Below are positions 989-31,503 of a DNA stretch of 47,319 bases, piece by piece (positions within the stretch are counted from its first letter, which is position 1; each line of letters starts with the position of its first letter). A program made the position numbers and the translations under genes. The notes beneath the pieces are model-generated. The model saw only the letters and a program-made list of their open reading frames with translations. It was not told the DNA's origin and searched no databases. Where the stretch lies: assembly GCA_030600655.1 (NCBI GenBank), contig JAUVLP010000007.1:1-47319 (forward strand), read 5' to 3'. This DNA comes from Candidatus Eiseniibacteriota bacterium. GTDB taxonomy: Bacteria; Joyebacterota; Joyebacteria; Joyebacterales; Joyebacteraceae.

Positions 989-1012
989 GGGGGCGGGAGA
1001 CCGCCCCCTTTT
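989..1012 (+). terminator. Rho-independent terminator after the lipoprotein gene
   Basis: GGGGGCGG (989-996) pairs perfectly with CCGCCCCC (1001-1008) around a GAGA loop, followed by TTTT. It lies 47 bases past the lipoprotein stop codon. Confidence 0.9.
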
Positions 1013-5956: not shown

Positions 5957-5984
5957 GGCGGCGCTCTTCGGGGCGCCGCCTTTT
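5957..5984 (+). terminator. Rho-independent terminator after secF
   Basis: GGCGGCGC (5957-5964) pairs with GCGCCGCC (5973-5980) around an 8-base loop and is followed by TTTT. It isolates secDF from the DUF4159 operon. Confidence 0.9.
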
Positions 5985-21404: not shown

Positions 21405-21422
21405 ATGGGGAGGTGGTGGGGA

Positions 21423-22325
21423 ATGAGTGAGCGAAGAAGAGTCCAACGATCCAGTCCGCCGGGAGATGTGTGCTTCCGCGGCCTGTCCGTGTGCATGGGG
21501 AGTTGCGGGTGTGTCGTGTGGTTGTGTGCGGTGTGGCTGTGCACGATCGCTCTCTCTGCTCTGCCTGATTCTGCGGTCGCCGACGATGTATCCGGTGGTA
21601 TCACCAAGGACACAACCTGGACAAGCGCCGGGAATCCATGGACTGTCACCGGCGATATCACAGTCAAGACGGGAGCGACTCTGACGATTGAGAGCGGCGT
21701 CGAGGTCCTCTTTGACGGCGACTACTATATGTGGACCGACTCCACGACCAGCGGGACGATAATTGTTCAGGGCGCGATCGGGGACAGTGTTGTGTTCAAG
21801 GCGGCCTCCGGGCTGCCGGACGAGAGCCAGTGGAGAGAGATAGGGATCTTCGACTCTCCCGGAACGTCGTTCGATTACTGTGTGGTGATGCACGCGAAGG
21901 TCGGCATCAAGCTGAGCGACTCGGACAGTCCGATCACGCACTGTGCCTTGAGGCACTGTCAGACCGGCATCTGGTGCAAGAGAGCGTCACCGCCGATCGA
22001 GAGCTCATGGATAACCGACTGCTCGTTCGCGGGAATCCTTTGCGAGACGAGATCGAGCTTGCCCGTGATTCACGACTGCAACCTCTACGACAACCCCAGG
22101 TACAATGTCAGGCTCATGAACTACATCGAGGCACCGATGGTTACGATTGACGCTACAGAGAACTGGTGGGGAACGGCTGAGGAGGCGGAGATAGAGGCCG
22201 GCATTTTTCATAGCGGTGATGATGTAACTGTTTCCTATGGGACCGTAGACTACGAGAACTGGCGCAACGAGGCACCTGTCGAGGAGCATACTTGGGGTTC
22301 CATTAAGGCATTGTTCATAAGGTGA
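21423..22325 (+). CDS. exported right-handed beta-helix protein
   Basis: 300 residues. An unusually Cys- and Trp-rich hydrophobic N-terminus (CMGSCGCVVWLCAVWLCTIALSALP) acts as signal peptide or anchor. The mature part begins GGITKDTTWTSAGNPWTVTGDITVKTGATLTIESGVEV, the capping turn of many secreted beta-helix proteins, and continues with short turns (IIVQGAIGDSVVFKAA, DSDSPITHCALRHCQTGIW, SLPVIHDCNLYDN) and NWWGTAEEAEI, a motif common at the end of such helices. It ends EEHTWGSIKALFIR, similar to the tail of the lipoprotein at 277. ATG at 21423 has GGAGG about 9 bases upstream; ATG at 21405 is possible. Its stop overlaps a small GTG-started frame (GTGA at 22322). Confidence 0.82.
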   Translation: MSERRRVQRSSPPGDVCFRGLSVCMGSCGCVVWLCAVWLCTIALSALPDSAVADDVSGGITKDTTWTSAGNPWTVTGDITVKTGATLTIESGVEVLFDGDYYMWTDSTTSGTIIVQGAIGDSVVFKAASGLPDESQWREIGIFDSPGTSFDYCVVMHAKVGIKLSDSDSPITHCALRHCQTGIWCKRASPPIESSWITDCSFAGILCETRSSLPVIHDCNLYDNPRYNVRLMNYIEAPMVTIDATENWWGTAEEAEIEAGIFHSGDDVTVSYGTVDYENWRNEAPVEEHTWGSIKALFIR

Positions 22326-22444
22326 ACACGGCAGACCACTCCTTGACCACATCTCTTGGAGTCGAAAAGCCCTATGGCTTGGGCGGAACGAAGAAAAAGG
22401 AGGAAATCCTCAGATCCATTGTTGACAGGTTGAACAAGCTGTGA
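22322..22444 (+). CDS. possible 40-residue small protein
   Basis: A 40-codon frame starts with GTG overlapping the beta-helix stop as GTGA (22322-22325) and ends at 22444. The first half is unstructured; the second half, TKKKEEILRSIVDRLNKL, is a clean amphipathic helix and resembles the N-terminal helix of small nucleotidyltransferases, as if cut short. Against it: its last codons carry the promoter of the next gene and there is no independent ribosome site. It could be a real coupled microprotein, a gene remnant or chance. Confidence 0.3.
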   Translation: MNTADHSLTTSLGVEKPYGLGGTKKKEEILRSIVDRLNKL

Positions 22445-22450
22445 TATTCT
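22422..22450 (+). promoter_or_regulatory. strong extended -10 promoter of the C25 peptidase gene
   Basis: A perfect TTGACA (22422-22427), 17-bp spacer, and TATTCT (22445-22450) preceded by TGA, which gives an extended -10 element. Transcription would start near 22457, leaving a leader of about 50 bases that is almost entirely folded. Confidence 0.65.
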
Positions 22451-22454
22451 TAAG

Positions 22455-22503
22455 TTGTGATGGGGATCACAAAGCCTGCGGCCGGCAAACGGTCGGAGGC
22501 TTT
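22455..22503 (+). promoter_or_regulatory. structured leader hiding the ribosome site of the C25 peptidase gene
   Basis: Two alternative hairpins share bases. The first is TTGTGAT/ATCACAA (22455-22461 / 22466-22472, loop GGGG). The second runs from AAAGCCT (22471-22477) to AGGCTTT (22497-22503) and continues, past one G-G mismatch, as CGGCCG/CGGTCG around a GCAAA loop: 13 pairs in all. The Shine-Dalgarno GGAGG (22495-22499) lies inside the 3' arm, 6 bases before the TTG start. Alternatively it is a terminator-like attenuator, since TTTCTTT follows. I do not recognise a known riboswitch. Confidence 0.55.
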
Positions 22504-22505
22504 CT

Positions 22506-25019
22506 TTGTACACCATCAGAATCAGAAGATCGAAGCTGGATGTTGAAAACAGCGTGGGCGCTAGCGTTTTCGGCGGCACCGTCAGTGCCGGCTCCGTAGT
22601 CAGGACATCTGTCCTCCAGGTCGTCCTCTCAGTGCTGCTCCTCACTTTTCCTGCTCTCGACGCGAACGCCGGACTCGACCCGGCGGCTCTGACTGCCACC
22701 AGCTATGAGGTGGCAGTCACCGCCACGGCTGACGCCGTGGTCGCAACCCTGTTGCTCGACCCAGCGCAACTGACGTTCGAGCAGTATGAGGGGTACGACC
22801 TGGTCTCCCTTGAGGGAGCCCAGCACACCACCGAGCCAGCTCTGCCCATGCTTCCCCTCCTCAACATCCAGCTTCTTCTTCCTCCAGATACAAGACCCGA
22901 GGACTTGTCCTACACCTACGGCGGAACTGTCTATCTTCCTGATTCATATGTGATTCTACCTGCTCCCCGGCCAGCGCGGTTCTCTTCTGGTGAAGCAGTC
23001 AAAATACCCCATCCGAAAGCAGAGACCTATGGCTCTGTGCTGCCATACCCCAGGGAGATAGCTCGCCTGGCCGGGGACGGTTCCTCTGCTGGTTACAGGA
23101 TGGTCGGGATTCTCGTGACGCCACTTCAGTATGTGCCGGCGACCGGGGAACTCCTCTTTCATACACGCATAGAGATCACGATCGACCTTAGCTCTACCTC
23201 CAGCCGCTCGCCGGTTGCCGTTTCTCTCTCCTCGGCGGCCGGCGCGGCGGTTGTCGGCTCCGCTGCCAATCCAGGCGACACCGGTTCGTACACAAGGAGA
23301 TCATCCGCACGGGATGCCTCTGCTGTCGACTACATGATCATATGTCCTGAGTCGTTCACTGATGCGTTCCAGCCGCTCGCAGACTGGAAGACACGCAAGG
23401 GTGTGAAGGCAGAGATAGTGACCCTCGAGTCGATCTATGCGAACCCCCTGTTTGATGGAAGAGATAATGCCGAGGAGATCCGCAACTGCATCCGCCAGTA
23501 CTTCTCAGAAGACGGAACAAGCTGGGTCCTTCTTGGCGGCGATACCAATATCGTTCCGGCGCGGAGGGCGTACGACTTCTTCTACGACCAGGGCCTTCCG
23601 GCCGATCTCTACTACTCGGCCCTCGACGGAAGCTGGGACGACGACGGTGACGGCCGGTGGGGCGAGGTCGGGAGCGACAATGTGGACATGTATGCCGACG
23701 TGTTCGTCGGCAGGGCGCCCGTCGAGACCACAGATGAAGCGGCCATTTTCGTCGACAAGGTCCTCGTATACGAAGGCGCGTCGTTCACGGTGCCCTCCGA
23801 CTTCCAGACAGACATGCTCTTCCTTGGTGAGATTCTCTGGGACTCACCGAACCCATATACGGATGGTGGTATTGCGCTCGACATGATTGATGACGGCTAC
23901 GTGCCGGATGTATTCAGTCCGATTACCAAGCTTTATGAGAGCTCCGGCAACCTGAGCACCGCGTCAGCTGTTCAGGAGCTGGAGAATGGATACGGGATCA
24001 TCGTCCATGAAGGGCACGCCAACATTTCGACCGCCAGCGTTGGCCTCGGTGCGCTCACCTCCGCGACACTCGACGGTCTCGGTAACGGTGAGCGCGGTGG
24101 TCTCTGGTACTCGGTCGGGTGTTGGTCCGCCGCCATCGACTACGACACGTTCGGAGAGCACTGGCTTACGAACGGCGGCGGTGGTGGCGTTGCGTATGTC
24201 GGCAACTCCCGCTATGGCTGGGGCTGCCCAGGCTACCCGGGACAGTGCGTGTCCGACCTCTACAGCCAGCGCTTCTTCGAGTCGCTCTTCACTAAGGACC
24301 TGGTTCACGCCGGTCTTGTTCACGCGGACGCGAAACACAATTTCATCAGCCTTGCACAGAGCGACGATTACACCCGCTATGTGATGTACGAACTGAATCT
24401 TCTTGGGGATCCGGAGCTTCCGATCTGGACCGATGCTCCTTCTCTTCTCACGGTCAGCTATGACGATGTGGTTCAGCTCGGGGACGATCGAGGCGATCTC
24501 GAGATTGAGGTGACGGTCGGCGGTTCACCCGTCGGTGCCGCCACCGTTTGCCTCATGACCGAAGATGGTGAGATCTACGTGACCGGCGAGACCGACGCCG
24601 CCGGCCGCGCGGTTCTGACGATCGAGTTCGACCAGCCGCGAGAGGCCGCGCTGACCGTTACTGCTCACAACTGTGTGCCGTTCGGGGCGGCGATCGGCCT
24701 TGGTGAGCCGACCTCGGATGTCGGCGATGCGGAGTTCGGGAGCGCGACCGCTCTTCAGCAGAACTACCCCAATCCCTTCAATCCCATGACCAGTATCGCC
24801 TTCAGTCTGGCTGAGAGCGGCCATGCCCGGATCGTGATCTACGACGTGTCCGGCAGGCTCGTGAAGGTCCTCATCGATGAAGACACTGATGCCGGGCCGG
24901 GCTTCGTAACCTGGAATGGCAGAGACGATGGAGGCAGAGACGTTGCCTCCGGCACGTACTTCGCGCGCATGAGCGCGGGCGGAATCTTCACAGAGAGAAA
25001 GATGGTGCTGATGAGATAG
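22506..25019 (+). CDS. C25 (gingipain-like) peptidase with FlgD-like C-terminal tail
   Basis: 837 residues. A signal sequence (VLQVVLSVLLLTFPALDANA) follows a 33-residue N-terminal extension. Residues of about 50-240 form a propeptide-like beta region. The C25 catalytic domain follows: VDYMIICPESF, PLADWKTRKGVKAEIV, WVLLGGDTNIVPAR and DVFVGRAPVET, with His504 in VHEGHANIS and Cys539 in SVGCWSAAID as the expected dyad. A short Ig-like domain then leads to the FlgD-like tail (about 748-837) with NYPNPFNP, YDVSGRLVKVL and a final RKMVLMR, as on cargo of type IX-like secretion. The tail argues for a cargo protein rather than the sortase PorU. TTG at 22506 is the only start with a ribosome site (GGAGG, 6 bases), itself inside a hairpin. 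Confidence 0.87.
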   Translation: MYTIRIRRSKLDVENSVGASVFGGTVSAGSVVRTSVLQVVLSVLLLTFPALDANAGLDPAALTATSYEVAVTATADAVVATLLLDPAQLTFEQYEGYDLVSLEGAQHTTEPALPMLPLLNIQLLLPPDTRPEDLSYTYGGTVYLPDSYVILPAPRPARFSSGEAVKIPHPKAETYGSVLPYPREIARLAGDGSSAGYRMVGILVTPLQYVPATGELLFHTRIEITIDLSSTSSRSPVAVSLSSAAGAAVVGSAANPGDTGSYTRRSSARDASAVDYMIICPESFTDAFQPLADWKTRKGVKAEIVTLESIYANPLFDGRDNAEEIRNCIRQYFSEDGTSWVLLGGDTNIVPARRAYDFFYDQGLPADLYYSALDGSWDDDGDGRWGEVGSDNVDMYADVFVGRAPVETTDEAAIFVDKVLVYEGASFTVPSDFQTDMLFLGEILWDSPNPYTDGGIALDMIDDGYVPDVFSPITKLYESSGNLSTASAVQELENGYGIIVHEGHANISTASVGLGALTSATLDGLGNGERGGLWYSVGCWSAAIDYDTFGEHWLTNGGGGGVAYVGNSRYGWGCPGYPGQCVSDLYSQRFFESLFTKDLVHAGLVHADAKHNFISLAQSDDYTRYVMYELNLLGDPELPIWTDAPSLLTVSYDDVVQLGDDRGDLEIEVTVGGSPVGAATVCLMTEDGEIYVTGETDAAGRAVLTIEFDQPREAALTVTAHNCVPFGAAIGLGEPTSDVGDAEFGSATALQQNYPNPFNPMTSIAFSLAESGHARIVIYDVSGRLVKVLIDEDTDAGPGFVTWNGRDDGGRDVASGTYFARMSAGGIFTERKMVLMR

Positions 25020-25170: not shown

Positions 25171-25920
25171 ATGATGCGATTTGCTACAATCGCTGTCTGG
25201 GTTTCCCTTTTTCTGATCTTACTCATCGGTCCAGCGTCAGCTCGTCCACTCGTCTGGGAGGCGTGGGGAGAGAACGCCGTTGCCGCCAGCGCTTCAGAGG
25301 GAACGCACGCCTGGATCACGCACGGACTGTACGAACGGGGGACTGAAGTCGGAATGGGCAAGTGGCAGGCAGCCGGCACTGCGATGGGTATCATGCTCGC
25401 GTGGGAGGTTGTCGAGGTTAAGGGTATGGATGCGCTCGGCGTGTCGGTTCAGGATCTTGCCGCCAACACTCTCGGCATGGTTGCGGGTGTTGTGGGGCTT
25501 GGGGTCAACTACCAGTACGTCACATTTTCCGATCCTCCGGAGCATGACAAGGTCTGGATGAAGATACCATGCACGCCCAGGAACGACATGAGCTACTCGT
25601 TCGAGCTGCAGTCGGGCCAGGTGACGGCTGGTGTGAAGTACTTGGGGAAGATCCAGGGCGACATGGTGATGGGTTCCGCGTCGATGCCGGTCCACGCGGG
25701 TGAGACAGGTGACAACAGCCTGATACCGTACATGGGATACAAATGGAAAAGCGGCTGGCACGCAGCAGCCGGATACGACGGCGTGAATGAAAACGTGATG
25801 GTCGGCGGCGGGTACGCGCTGTCGGTCGGATACGTTGGCACCGACATCACCGCTCTTCTGGCCGAAGGGGAACTCGCGCTCGGCTTAGGGGTCTTCGTCA
25901 ACTACGACTTGATCTTCTAG
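25171..25920 (+). CDS. exported barrel-like protein, YfiM/DUF2279-like
   Basis: 249 residues with a clear signal peptide (IAVWVSLFLILLIGPASA). Two hydrophobic Gly-rich helices (WQAAGTAMGIMLAWEVVEVKG and LAANTLGMVAGVVGLGVNYQY) follow, then an alternating C-terminal half ending in Phe, as in outer-membrane proteins. The pattern of a short helical region before Trp/Tyr-rich strands resembles YfiM/DUF2279 proteins; this is a tentative match and no lipobox is present. AAGGAG lies 5 bases before the ATG. Its TAG stop shares the palindrome CTAG with the stop of the convergent thrS gene, so the two genes overlap by 4 bp. Confidence 0.65.
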   Translation: MMRFATIAVWVSLFLILLIGPASARPLVWEAWGENAVAASASEGTHAWITHGLYERGTEVGMGKWQAAGTAMGIMLAWEVVEVKGMDALGVSVQDLAANTLGMVAGVVGLGVNYQYVTFSDPPEHDKVWMKIPCTPRNDMSYSFELQSGQVTAGVKYLGKIQGDMVMGSASMPVHAGETGDNSLIPYMGYKWKSGWHAAAGYDGVNENVMVGGGYALSVGYVGTDITALLAEGELALGLGVFVNYDLIF

Positions 25921-27797
25921 CCTACGAAGATCGGCCGCACTGACATTCTGGCAGCCACGTTGAGCGGCTTGTACGGCAGCCCTTTGACTTTCTCCTCGAT
26001 GGCCGCGTTCAGCTGCTCGATACTCATCGTCTCCTGGTCGCCGCCGCGAACTCGGACGGTGAGAGATCCACTCTCGATCTCGTTGTCACCGACCACAAGC
26101 ACGTACGGAATCCAGTTCCGCCCGGCATCGCGGATCTTTTTGCCGACGCTCATATCGCGGTCGTCGAAATCGGCGCGGTACGGGATCTTCGGGAGCAGTG
26201 AAGCACAGAAGTCGTTGTGCCGCTCGGCAACCGGGATTATGCGTACCTGCGTGGGTGCGAGCCAGATCGGCAGCATTGGGACTTCCTTGTTCTTGATCCT
26301 CATTGCCTGCTGCTCGAGGATGGCGCAGAGAACACGGTCGATGGCTCCCGACACAGAGGTGTGCATGAGGATCGGGTGCTTCTTCTGCCCGTCCTCATCC
26401 ACGTAGGTGATGTCGAATCGCTCGGTGTTCTCCACATCGATCTGCACGGTAGAAAGACAGAATGCTTTTCCCTGCGCGTCGATAAAGTTGAATTCGAGTT
26501 TGGCGACGAAGTAGAAGAAGCGCTCCTCCCAGATCTCGCCCAGGATAGGCCTTCCGGCCTGCTTTGCGATCGAGCGCGCGAACTCCGGATCCTCGTCGAG
26601 GAAACCCCGCACAAATCGAACAGCGACTTCGTACTCAAGGCCGAAATCATCCAGACACTTCTGCGCAAGCTTCATCTGCGCAAGGAATTCTTCGCGCGCC
26701 GCGGCCTTGTCCTTCACAAGAGTATGAAGATCCGGCATCGTGAACGTGCGCAGGCGCCTGAGGCCCGCCAGTTCTCCGCTCTGCTCGCGACGGAATGAAT
26801 AGTGGCTGATCTCATAGAGGCGGCACGGGAGCATCCGGTGTGAGAGCTGCATGTCGTGCTGCATCATGTACTGCCCGAAGCACGCAGCGAATCGCAGGAA
26901 GAACTCCTTCTGGTCCGAGATCACGACGTACTGCCGTGCGGGGAATCTATTGAGGTAGCTCTTCAGATTTGGATGCTCATAGTCGTACATGATAGGCGTC
27001 TCGACGCGCATCGCGCCGTACTCGTTCGTGAGCCTGCTCACCTGCTCCTCGGCGAGCCATTTGATGAGCTGCCCCTGCGGGTACCATCGCATGTTGCCGC
27101 CGTCGGACGCCGGTTCGTAGTCGACGAGTTCCAGGCGTCTCATGAGCTCGATGTGCGCCGGTGGCTCGGTGACCGCGCGTGAGCCTTCGAACTCGTAGTC
27201 GCACATTTCCTTCAGGTGCGGAGCGCTCTTCATGTCGAACTCGGCGGTTGGGATGTCACCGCCGTCAGGCGTGAAGATGCGCCAGTCGGACGTGATTCCA
27301 TCCTCGGTCTTGACCGCCTCGGAGACGTGCAGGTCTTCCTCTTTGCCTTCCTTCTTCTCGCCCGACGGAGTGAAGGTCTTCGCCAGCTCGGAGAGCGGAT
27401 GGCCCTTGCAGGCGATGTCGAAGCCCTTGTAGAAACCAAACGGCGCCTCGAGTACTTCGAATTCCCCGGTCTCCTTCATGAGTTCGTGGACACGGGCAAG
27501 TAGCTTCGTGGCTACGCGGGGCGATGAGAGATCGCTCGAGAGGTGGGCGTAAGGATAGAGCATGACCGTACCAACCGAGAGCCGCTTCGCCTGCTCAACG
27601 ATGGTCGCGGCCGCCTGTTTGGCGACCGACTCGATGCCCTGCTCGTCGGTCTTCTCAGAGGCCATGAACGCGACGAGTGCTTCGCCGCAGCCGCCCTTCA
27701 TCCGAGACTCGTCGAGTTCGGCGAGCTTTGAGACAGCCGAGGTCTTCTCGGTGACGTGGTAGCTGAACTTGTCAGTGTGAATCAGAAGTATGCGCAT
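25917..27797 (-). CDS. thrS: threonyl-tRNA synthetase, archaeal type
   Basis: 626 residues charging tRNA-Thr with threonine. The first 140 residues (MRILLIHTDKFSYHVTEKT onward, with GTVMLYPYAHLSSDLSSP and APFGFYKGFDIACKGHPLSE) form the archaeal D-aminoacyl-deacylase-like editing domain, not the bacterial TGS and HxxxH editing domains. The catalytic core follows: SGELAGLRRLRTFTMPDLH (motif 2 region), the zinc ligands Cys of FAACFGQYM, His of MPDLH and His of MHTSVSGAIDR (motif 3), and an anticodon-binding domain with APTQVRIIPVAERH. A bacterium carrying this form probably acquired it by transfer. It has its own promoter at 27879 and ends in a 4-bp convergent overlap. Confidence 0.95.
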   Translation of the reverse strand: MRILLIHTDKFSYHVTEKTSAVSKLAELDESRMKGGCGEALVAFMASEKTDEQGIESVAKQAAATIVEQAKRLSVGTVMLYPYAHLSSDLSSPRVATKLLARVHELMKETGEFEVLEAPFGFYKGFDIACKGHPLSELAKTFTPSGEKKEGKEEDLHVSEAVKTEDGITSDWRIFTPDGGDIPTAEFDMKSAPHLKEMCDYEFEGSRAVTEPPAHIELMRRLELVDYEPASDGGNMRWYPQGQLIKWLAEEQVSRLTNEYGAMRVETPIMYDYEHPNLKSYLNRFPARQYVVISDQKEFFLRFAACFGQYMMQHDMQLSHRMLPCRLYEISHYSFRREQSGELAGLRRLRTFTMPDLHTLVKDKAAAREEFLAQMKLAQKCLDDFGLEYEVAVRFVRGFLDEDPEFARSIAKQAGRPILGEIWEERFFYFVAKLEFNFIDAQGKAFCLSTVQIDVENTERFDITYVDEDGQKKHPILMHTSVSGAIDRVLCAILEQQAMRIKNKEVPMLPIWLAPTQVRIIPVAERHNDFCASLLPKIPYRADFDDRDMSVGKKIRDAGRNWIPYVLVVGDNEIESGSLTVRVRGGDQETMSIEQLNAAIEEKVKGLPYKPLNVAARMSVRPIFVG

Positions 27798-31400: not shown

Positions 31401-31460
31401 TCAGGGGTGGTCTTCATAGCAATCTCGCCGCCGGTTCTGCTGCGGAGCTGACAAACAACT

Positions 31461-31503
31461 ACCCAGGCCGGCGCGTTCCTCCGCCGACCTGGGTAACGTG
31501 TTT
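31461..31503. terminator. bidirectional terminator between the patatin and subtilase genes
   Basis: ACCCAGG-C-CGGCG (31461-31473) pairs with CGCCG-A-CCTGGGT (31482-31494), 12 pairs with one mismatch. GTGTTTT follows on the plus strand and AGTTGTTTGT on the minus strand. It lies between two convergent stop codons. Confidence 0.75.

Follow-up and report, generated by a model that had tools for sequence, protein, structure and literature searches.

The gene for a C25 peptidase of Candidatus Eiseniibacteriota bacterium is preceded by a promoter and by a stable hairpin that contains a GGAGG sequence. The question raised by this locus is whether this hairpin hides the ribosome-binding site of the gene, as the original prediction had it, or whether it acts on transcription. 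The window, which is the whole stretch of 47,319 nt that was analysed, is an entire contig of a 2.6-Mb genome (G000) that is 99% complete. The gene (22554-25019, + strand) encodes a C25 peptidase (Pfam C25, 3.8e-58; FlgD_ig) with a FlgD-type/T9SS-like C-terminal tail (T9SS type A sorting tail), and lies downstream of a gene for a right-handed beta-helix protein on the same strand (21405-22325). Orthologues of the C25 gene are present in the other genomes of the window's family. In relatives, the leader element is preceded by a similar C-terminal end of the beta-helix gene, and a DNA search indicates that the conservation of the leader region reaches beyond the genus. About 80 FlgD/T9SS-like C-terminal tails are encoded in this one genome. 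A threonyl-tRNA synthetase with an archaea-type editing domain (PF08915) is encoded at 25920-27797 (- strand), though the genome is bacterial. Papers on Eisenbacteria covering the C25 peptidase or terminators were not found in a literature search.

The promoter consists of TTGACA (22422-22427), a 17-nt spacer and an extended -10 region TGTGA-TATTCT, in which TATTCT is located at 22445-22450 and is preceded by TG. It spans 22422-22450 on the + strand and matches the consensus at 10 of 12 positions. A promoter of the form TTGAC(A/G)-N17-TA, with TG preceding the -10 region, is present in all 19 orthologous loci, which represent eight genera. Thus, the near-consensus promoter that had been predicted is borne out both by its sequence and by its conservation. 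The predicted transcript start is surrounded by a palindrome, TTGTGAT-GGGG-ATCACAA (22455-22472, + strand). The conserved part of this palindrome is its core TGGGGA (22461-22466), which is found 9-11 nt past the -10 region in 19 of 19 loci, while the full palindrome is retained in some genera only. The stem of the downstream hairpin begins 19-24 nt after the -10 region in the 19 loci.

Three other candidates in this region were rejected. A coding remnant that ends at the promoter (SLTTSLGVEKPYGLGGTKKKEEILRSIVDRLNKL-stop) is not coding, because 51% of its bases are variable within the genus without any codon-position bias. A leader peptide starting from ATG at 22460 (MGITKP...) was rejected because most genera have CTG in place of this ATG and do not preserve the frame. 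The promoter spacer was considered as a gene-specific operator, and its pattern TTGACANNNTGNNCANNNTGTGRTA occurs about once per genome, yet two more matches (G012:C107 and G009:C108) precede other sequences, so that this pattern looks like a strong-promoter style in the family. Apart from the C25 loci, the promoter pattern with this style of spacer is matched only by L150 and L151, which are followed by different sequences, and L151 may be the leader of a stable RNA.

The hairpin (22471-22503, + strand) consists of two arms, 22471-22484 and 22490-22503, and a GCAAA loop, with a folding energy of -22.5 kcal/mol. Its sequence, AAAGCCT.CGGCCG-GCAAA-CGGTCG.AGGCTTT, forms 13 pairs flanking one G-G mismatch. 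These pairs, the single mismatch, the loop and the GGAGG inside the stem are all present as originally described. The 71-nt leader is folded with a z-score of -5.0 and none of 200 shuffled sequences is equally stable; only 0.04% of the 33-nt windows of the contig fold as stably as the hairpin. The proposal that the leader folds into two mutually exclusive hairpins is refuted, because the first hairpin, GTGAT-GGGG-ATCAC (22457-22470), conflicts with the second one at two terminal A-U pairs at most, and both form side by side in one predicted transcript.

The stem runs into a U-tract, UUUCUUUGU, and this arrangement is the anatomy of an intrinsic terminator. The U-tract, which did not figure in the original prediction, is assigned to TTTCTTTGT (22501-22509, + strand) and overlaps the TTG proposed as the start codon. 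The tail contains 6-8 T in 10 nt in nine of nine representatives, as compared to a background of 0.7% of the 10-mers in the window. The U-tract is not continuous, and it is weakest in G008 (CTATGG), where the T's are interrupted, suggesting that termination is possibly weak in this genome, which counts against the attenuator reading given below. The energies of the hairpin range from -18 to -29 kcal/mol across the 19 orthologous loci, and when the window is scanned for hairpins followed by U's, the site at 22471-22503 is the most stable one on the + strand. With a stable G+C-rich stem and a U-rich tract, the hairpin looks like an intrinsic terminator. Strong ordinary intrinsic terminators are also located directly after genes at 31460-31495 (- strand), 5957-5980 (+ strand) and 989-1008 (+ strand), and show that the genome uses this type of terminator.

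The element was compared among the 19 genomes, from eight genera, in which it occurs within the phylum sample. All 19 share a common layout, in which the promoter is followed by the invariant TGGGGA, the terminator, a T-rich tail and, 30-70 nt further, the start of the C25 gene. The stem changes in relatives are compensatory (A-U to G-C, G-C to A-U, U-A to G-C and U-A to C-G). Six pairs are altered on both sides, and the resulting covariation score is equalled by only two of 500 shuffles and is well above that of slid controls. The G-G mismatch of the window is replaced by a U-A pair in most genera and by a G-C pair in G008, and the loop varies in sequence and length. When five genomes of the window's genus are compared, the 20 bases of the 5' leader and the 33 of the stem-loop are all invariant and a single one of the 31 promoter bases varies (1 of 84 together), as compared to 48 of 94 (51%) in the flanking non-coding DNA upstream of the promoter. 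Thus, covariation of the stem, proposed as a test of the leader idea, is present with two-sided changes. The leader element is real in that its stem is conserved and covaries, but this stem, with the conserved U-tract that follows it, is of the terminator type, and a lock on a ribosome-binding site is improbable.

A covariance model of the leader was built and used to search the phylum sample. It detects one site per genome, always before the C25 orthologue. G016 is the sole genome of the sample without a site, and a close C25 orthologue is missing from it as well. A second copy of the element, on another contig of G001 (G001:C231:499-571), matches the g4 sequence and therefore probably represents foreign sequence or contamination of the bin. 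The model does not match at C25 paralogues or at C25 or FlgD-tailed homologues of other phyla. In 78 further genomes it gives only two weak matches (E-values of 0.003 and 0.005 in a search of 98 genomes), which are at chance level. A search of Rfam gives no match at the cut-off, and the best sub-threshold match is NiCo-AnGGAG (16.1 bits vs 64.5). A general leader of FlgD-tailed or C25 genes is rejected, as the model finds only one site in a genome that encodes about 80 further FlgD-type tails as well as several further C25 genes. These results indicate that the element is the leader of one gene and not, as had been suggested, a leader for exported proteases in general.

A strong promoter is followed immediately by a terminator, and in the 19 loci no further promoter-like site lies between the terminator and the gene; this arrangement is best read as an attenuator. 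The element is therefore probably, at roughly 60%, a promoter-proximal intrinsic terminator situated in the 5' leader of one C25 protease gene only. According to this reading, RNA polymerase would initiate at the promoter at 22422-22450, so that the transcript starts near 22455-22460, and would reach the G+C-rich hairpin and the U-tract after about 50 nt. The majority of the transcripts would end there as a short RNA, and the remainder would continue into the protease gene. As no further promoter-like site is seen, read-through would set the level of the protease mRNA. Termination in vivo, its partial nature and its regulation are predicted here from sequence. No RNA antiterminator is visible in the 19-24 nt between the -10 region and the stem, and no complement to either arm was seen there. 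Regulation would thus need a protein or another factor. Such a modulator of initiation or read-through would most plausibly contact the TGGGGA at about +5. Attenuators that depend on a protein or on partial termination do not need an antiterminator fold, and the attenuation mechanism is a candidate only.

According to the main rival reading, the promoter and the terminator would produce an independent small RNA of about 50-60 nt, in which the conserved 5' end (C/AUGGGGAUCA) would serve as a seed or a protein-binding site, and to which the protease gene would be merely adjacent, or would also be fed by read-through. A promoter, a short conserved 5' segment and a terminator constitute the minimal layout of a small RNA, and the TGGGGA is invariant in 19 of 19 loci. 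Termination within 5' UTRs is widespread in E. coli, and the resulting short RNAs can act as small RNAs (PMC7815308), which makes this rival the main one. It is nevertheless rather doubtful, because in eight genera the element was found only next to the C25 gene, and no other promoter is seen for this gene.

It is unlikely that the hairpin is the ordinary terminator of the beta-helix gene, with a promoter placed in front of it by an accident of packing and without any regulation. The hairpin is located 146 nt past the stop codon of this same-strand gene, and similar terminators follow other genes. However, conservation of the promoter and of the initial transcript equals that of the stem and does not extend to the remainder of the intergenic region, and a promoter 20 nt ahead serves no purpose in ending an upstream transcript. 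The attenuator may additionally serve as a terminator for the beta-helix gene.

Masking of the ribosome-binding site, in which the stem hides the site of a TTG start at 22506 and keeps translation off until it is opened, is quite improbable. In the window's genus, GGAGG (22495-22499, + strand) is part of the 3' arm of the stem and precedes the in-frame TTG by 6 nt. The folding model practically always keeps it paired (P of about 2e-10 for the unpaired state), but it can be a ribosome-binding site only if this TTG is the start. In several other genera an in-frame TTG follows the stem as well, somewhat more often than the expected one third, and the reading frame is preserved through a 6-nt deletion. 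However, GGAGG is confined to the window's genus (g1) and is replaced by GAAGG, GAGGG, GCAGG or AAGGG elsewhere, suggesting that the sequence at this place is dictated by the pairing of the stem. In G018, G008, G014, G011 and G005, the stem is not followed directly by an in-frame TTG. In addition, the masking model has no need of a conserved U-tract.

The position of the start codon also argues against masking. In other genera, the start candidates (GGAGCTGGATG, or GTG or TTG variants) are located downstream of the hairpin. An in-frame ATG follows GGAGCTGG or a variant of it in G012, G015, G006, G010 and G008, while TTG is found at the place of this ATG in G014 and G011, and GTG at the next codon in G009. 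An ATG is located 15 nt earlier in the g4 genomes. The homologous ATG in the window, which belongs to the conserved GCTGGATG motif (22540-22542, + strand), is an in-frame start candidate in several other genera and is out of frame in the window's genus, indicating that a fixed change in length must have shifted the start. In the window's genus this ATG opens a short frame (MLKTAWALAFSAAPSVPAP-stop, 22540-22599), which is out of frame with the protease and reflects a frameshift that has become fixed where the gene begins. The substitutions within the window's genus from TTG 22506 to GTG 22554 are distributed as 3/3/0 over the codon positions, which speaks against TTG 22506 as the start, but weakly, because there are only six of them. 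From GTG 22554 onward they are distributed as 4/3/9 and 14/7/30, which is a coding pattern. GTG 22554 is therefore the more likely start of the C25 gene as judged from these patterns, and TTG 22506 is a possible one. Thus, TTG does stand at 22506, but as a gene start it is supported neither by relatives nor by a third-position excess up to 22554. The proposal that translation is off depends on this start and is likewise unsupported by the comparison, in which homologous C25 genes start downstream of the hairpin.

It is very improbable that a CRP/FNR-type or other dimeric regulator uses TTGTGATGGGGATCACAA as its operator at the start site and that the terminator is secondary. This palindrome fits TGTGA-N6-TCACA, and its dyad is perfect in some genera, the window's genus among them. 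In other genera, however, it has lost one half-site or both, while the centre TGGGGA, which is unimportant in a CRP site, is invariant.

Among known systems, the attenuator reading is closest to the promoter-proximal terminators in the 5' UTRs of E. coli (PMC7815308), with which the element shares a strong promoter, a short leader, an intrinsic terminator before the start codon and a need for read-through. It differs from them in that it has no recognisable uORF, metabolite aptamer, tRNA site or RNA antiterminator, and in that its leader is very short, with about 20 nt before the stem. In the pyrG-type attenuator, which acts by reiterative transcription, a G-run is located near the transcription start and a terminator a few tens of nucleotides further on. 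The element shares both features, but its GGGG begins 11-12 nt after the -10 region, which is far for an initiation site, and its 5' arm contains no clear pyrimidine tract for pairing with poly-G. It resembles the targets of RfaH/LoaP/UpxY-type processive antitermination in having a short conserved element near the start of a terminator-bearing leader. Antitermination of the RfaH/LoaP type was rejected, because one NusG domain is found in 15 of 20 genomes and none in the other five; at most one such protein per genome leaves no specialised paralogue. The NusG domain was not found in G000 although relatives have one, probably because of an assembly gap. Leaders that mask a ribosome-binding site, such as thermometers and translational riboswitches, resemble the element in the GGAGG within the stem in the window's genus, but differ from it in that the masking is not conserved, the start codon is doubtful and the U-tract is conserved.

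The hairpin thus most likely limits how often the protease gene is transcribed, rather than hiding a ribosome-binding site, and the locus illustrates that the 3' arm of a terminator (GGAGGCUUU) can mimic a hidden ribosome-binding site. It is tentatively proposed that the 5' UGGGGAUCA segment and the terminator form a new class of regulated leader, or of leader-derived small RNA, in Eisenbacteria, in which a factor reading the first dozen nucleotides would decide on read-through without an RNA antiterminator fold. The element is a candidate for a conserved cis-regulatory RNA, with covariation across eight genera, in a lineage whose named records are all metagenome-assembled genomes. Many proteins carry T9SS-like tails, but the element is present on one protease only, which marks this gene as specially controlled.
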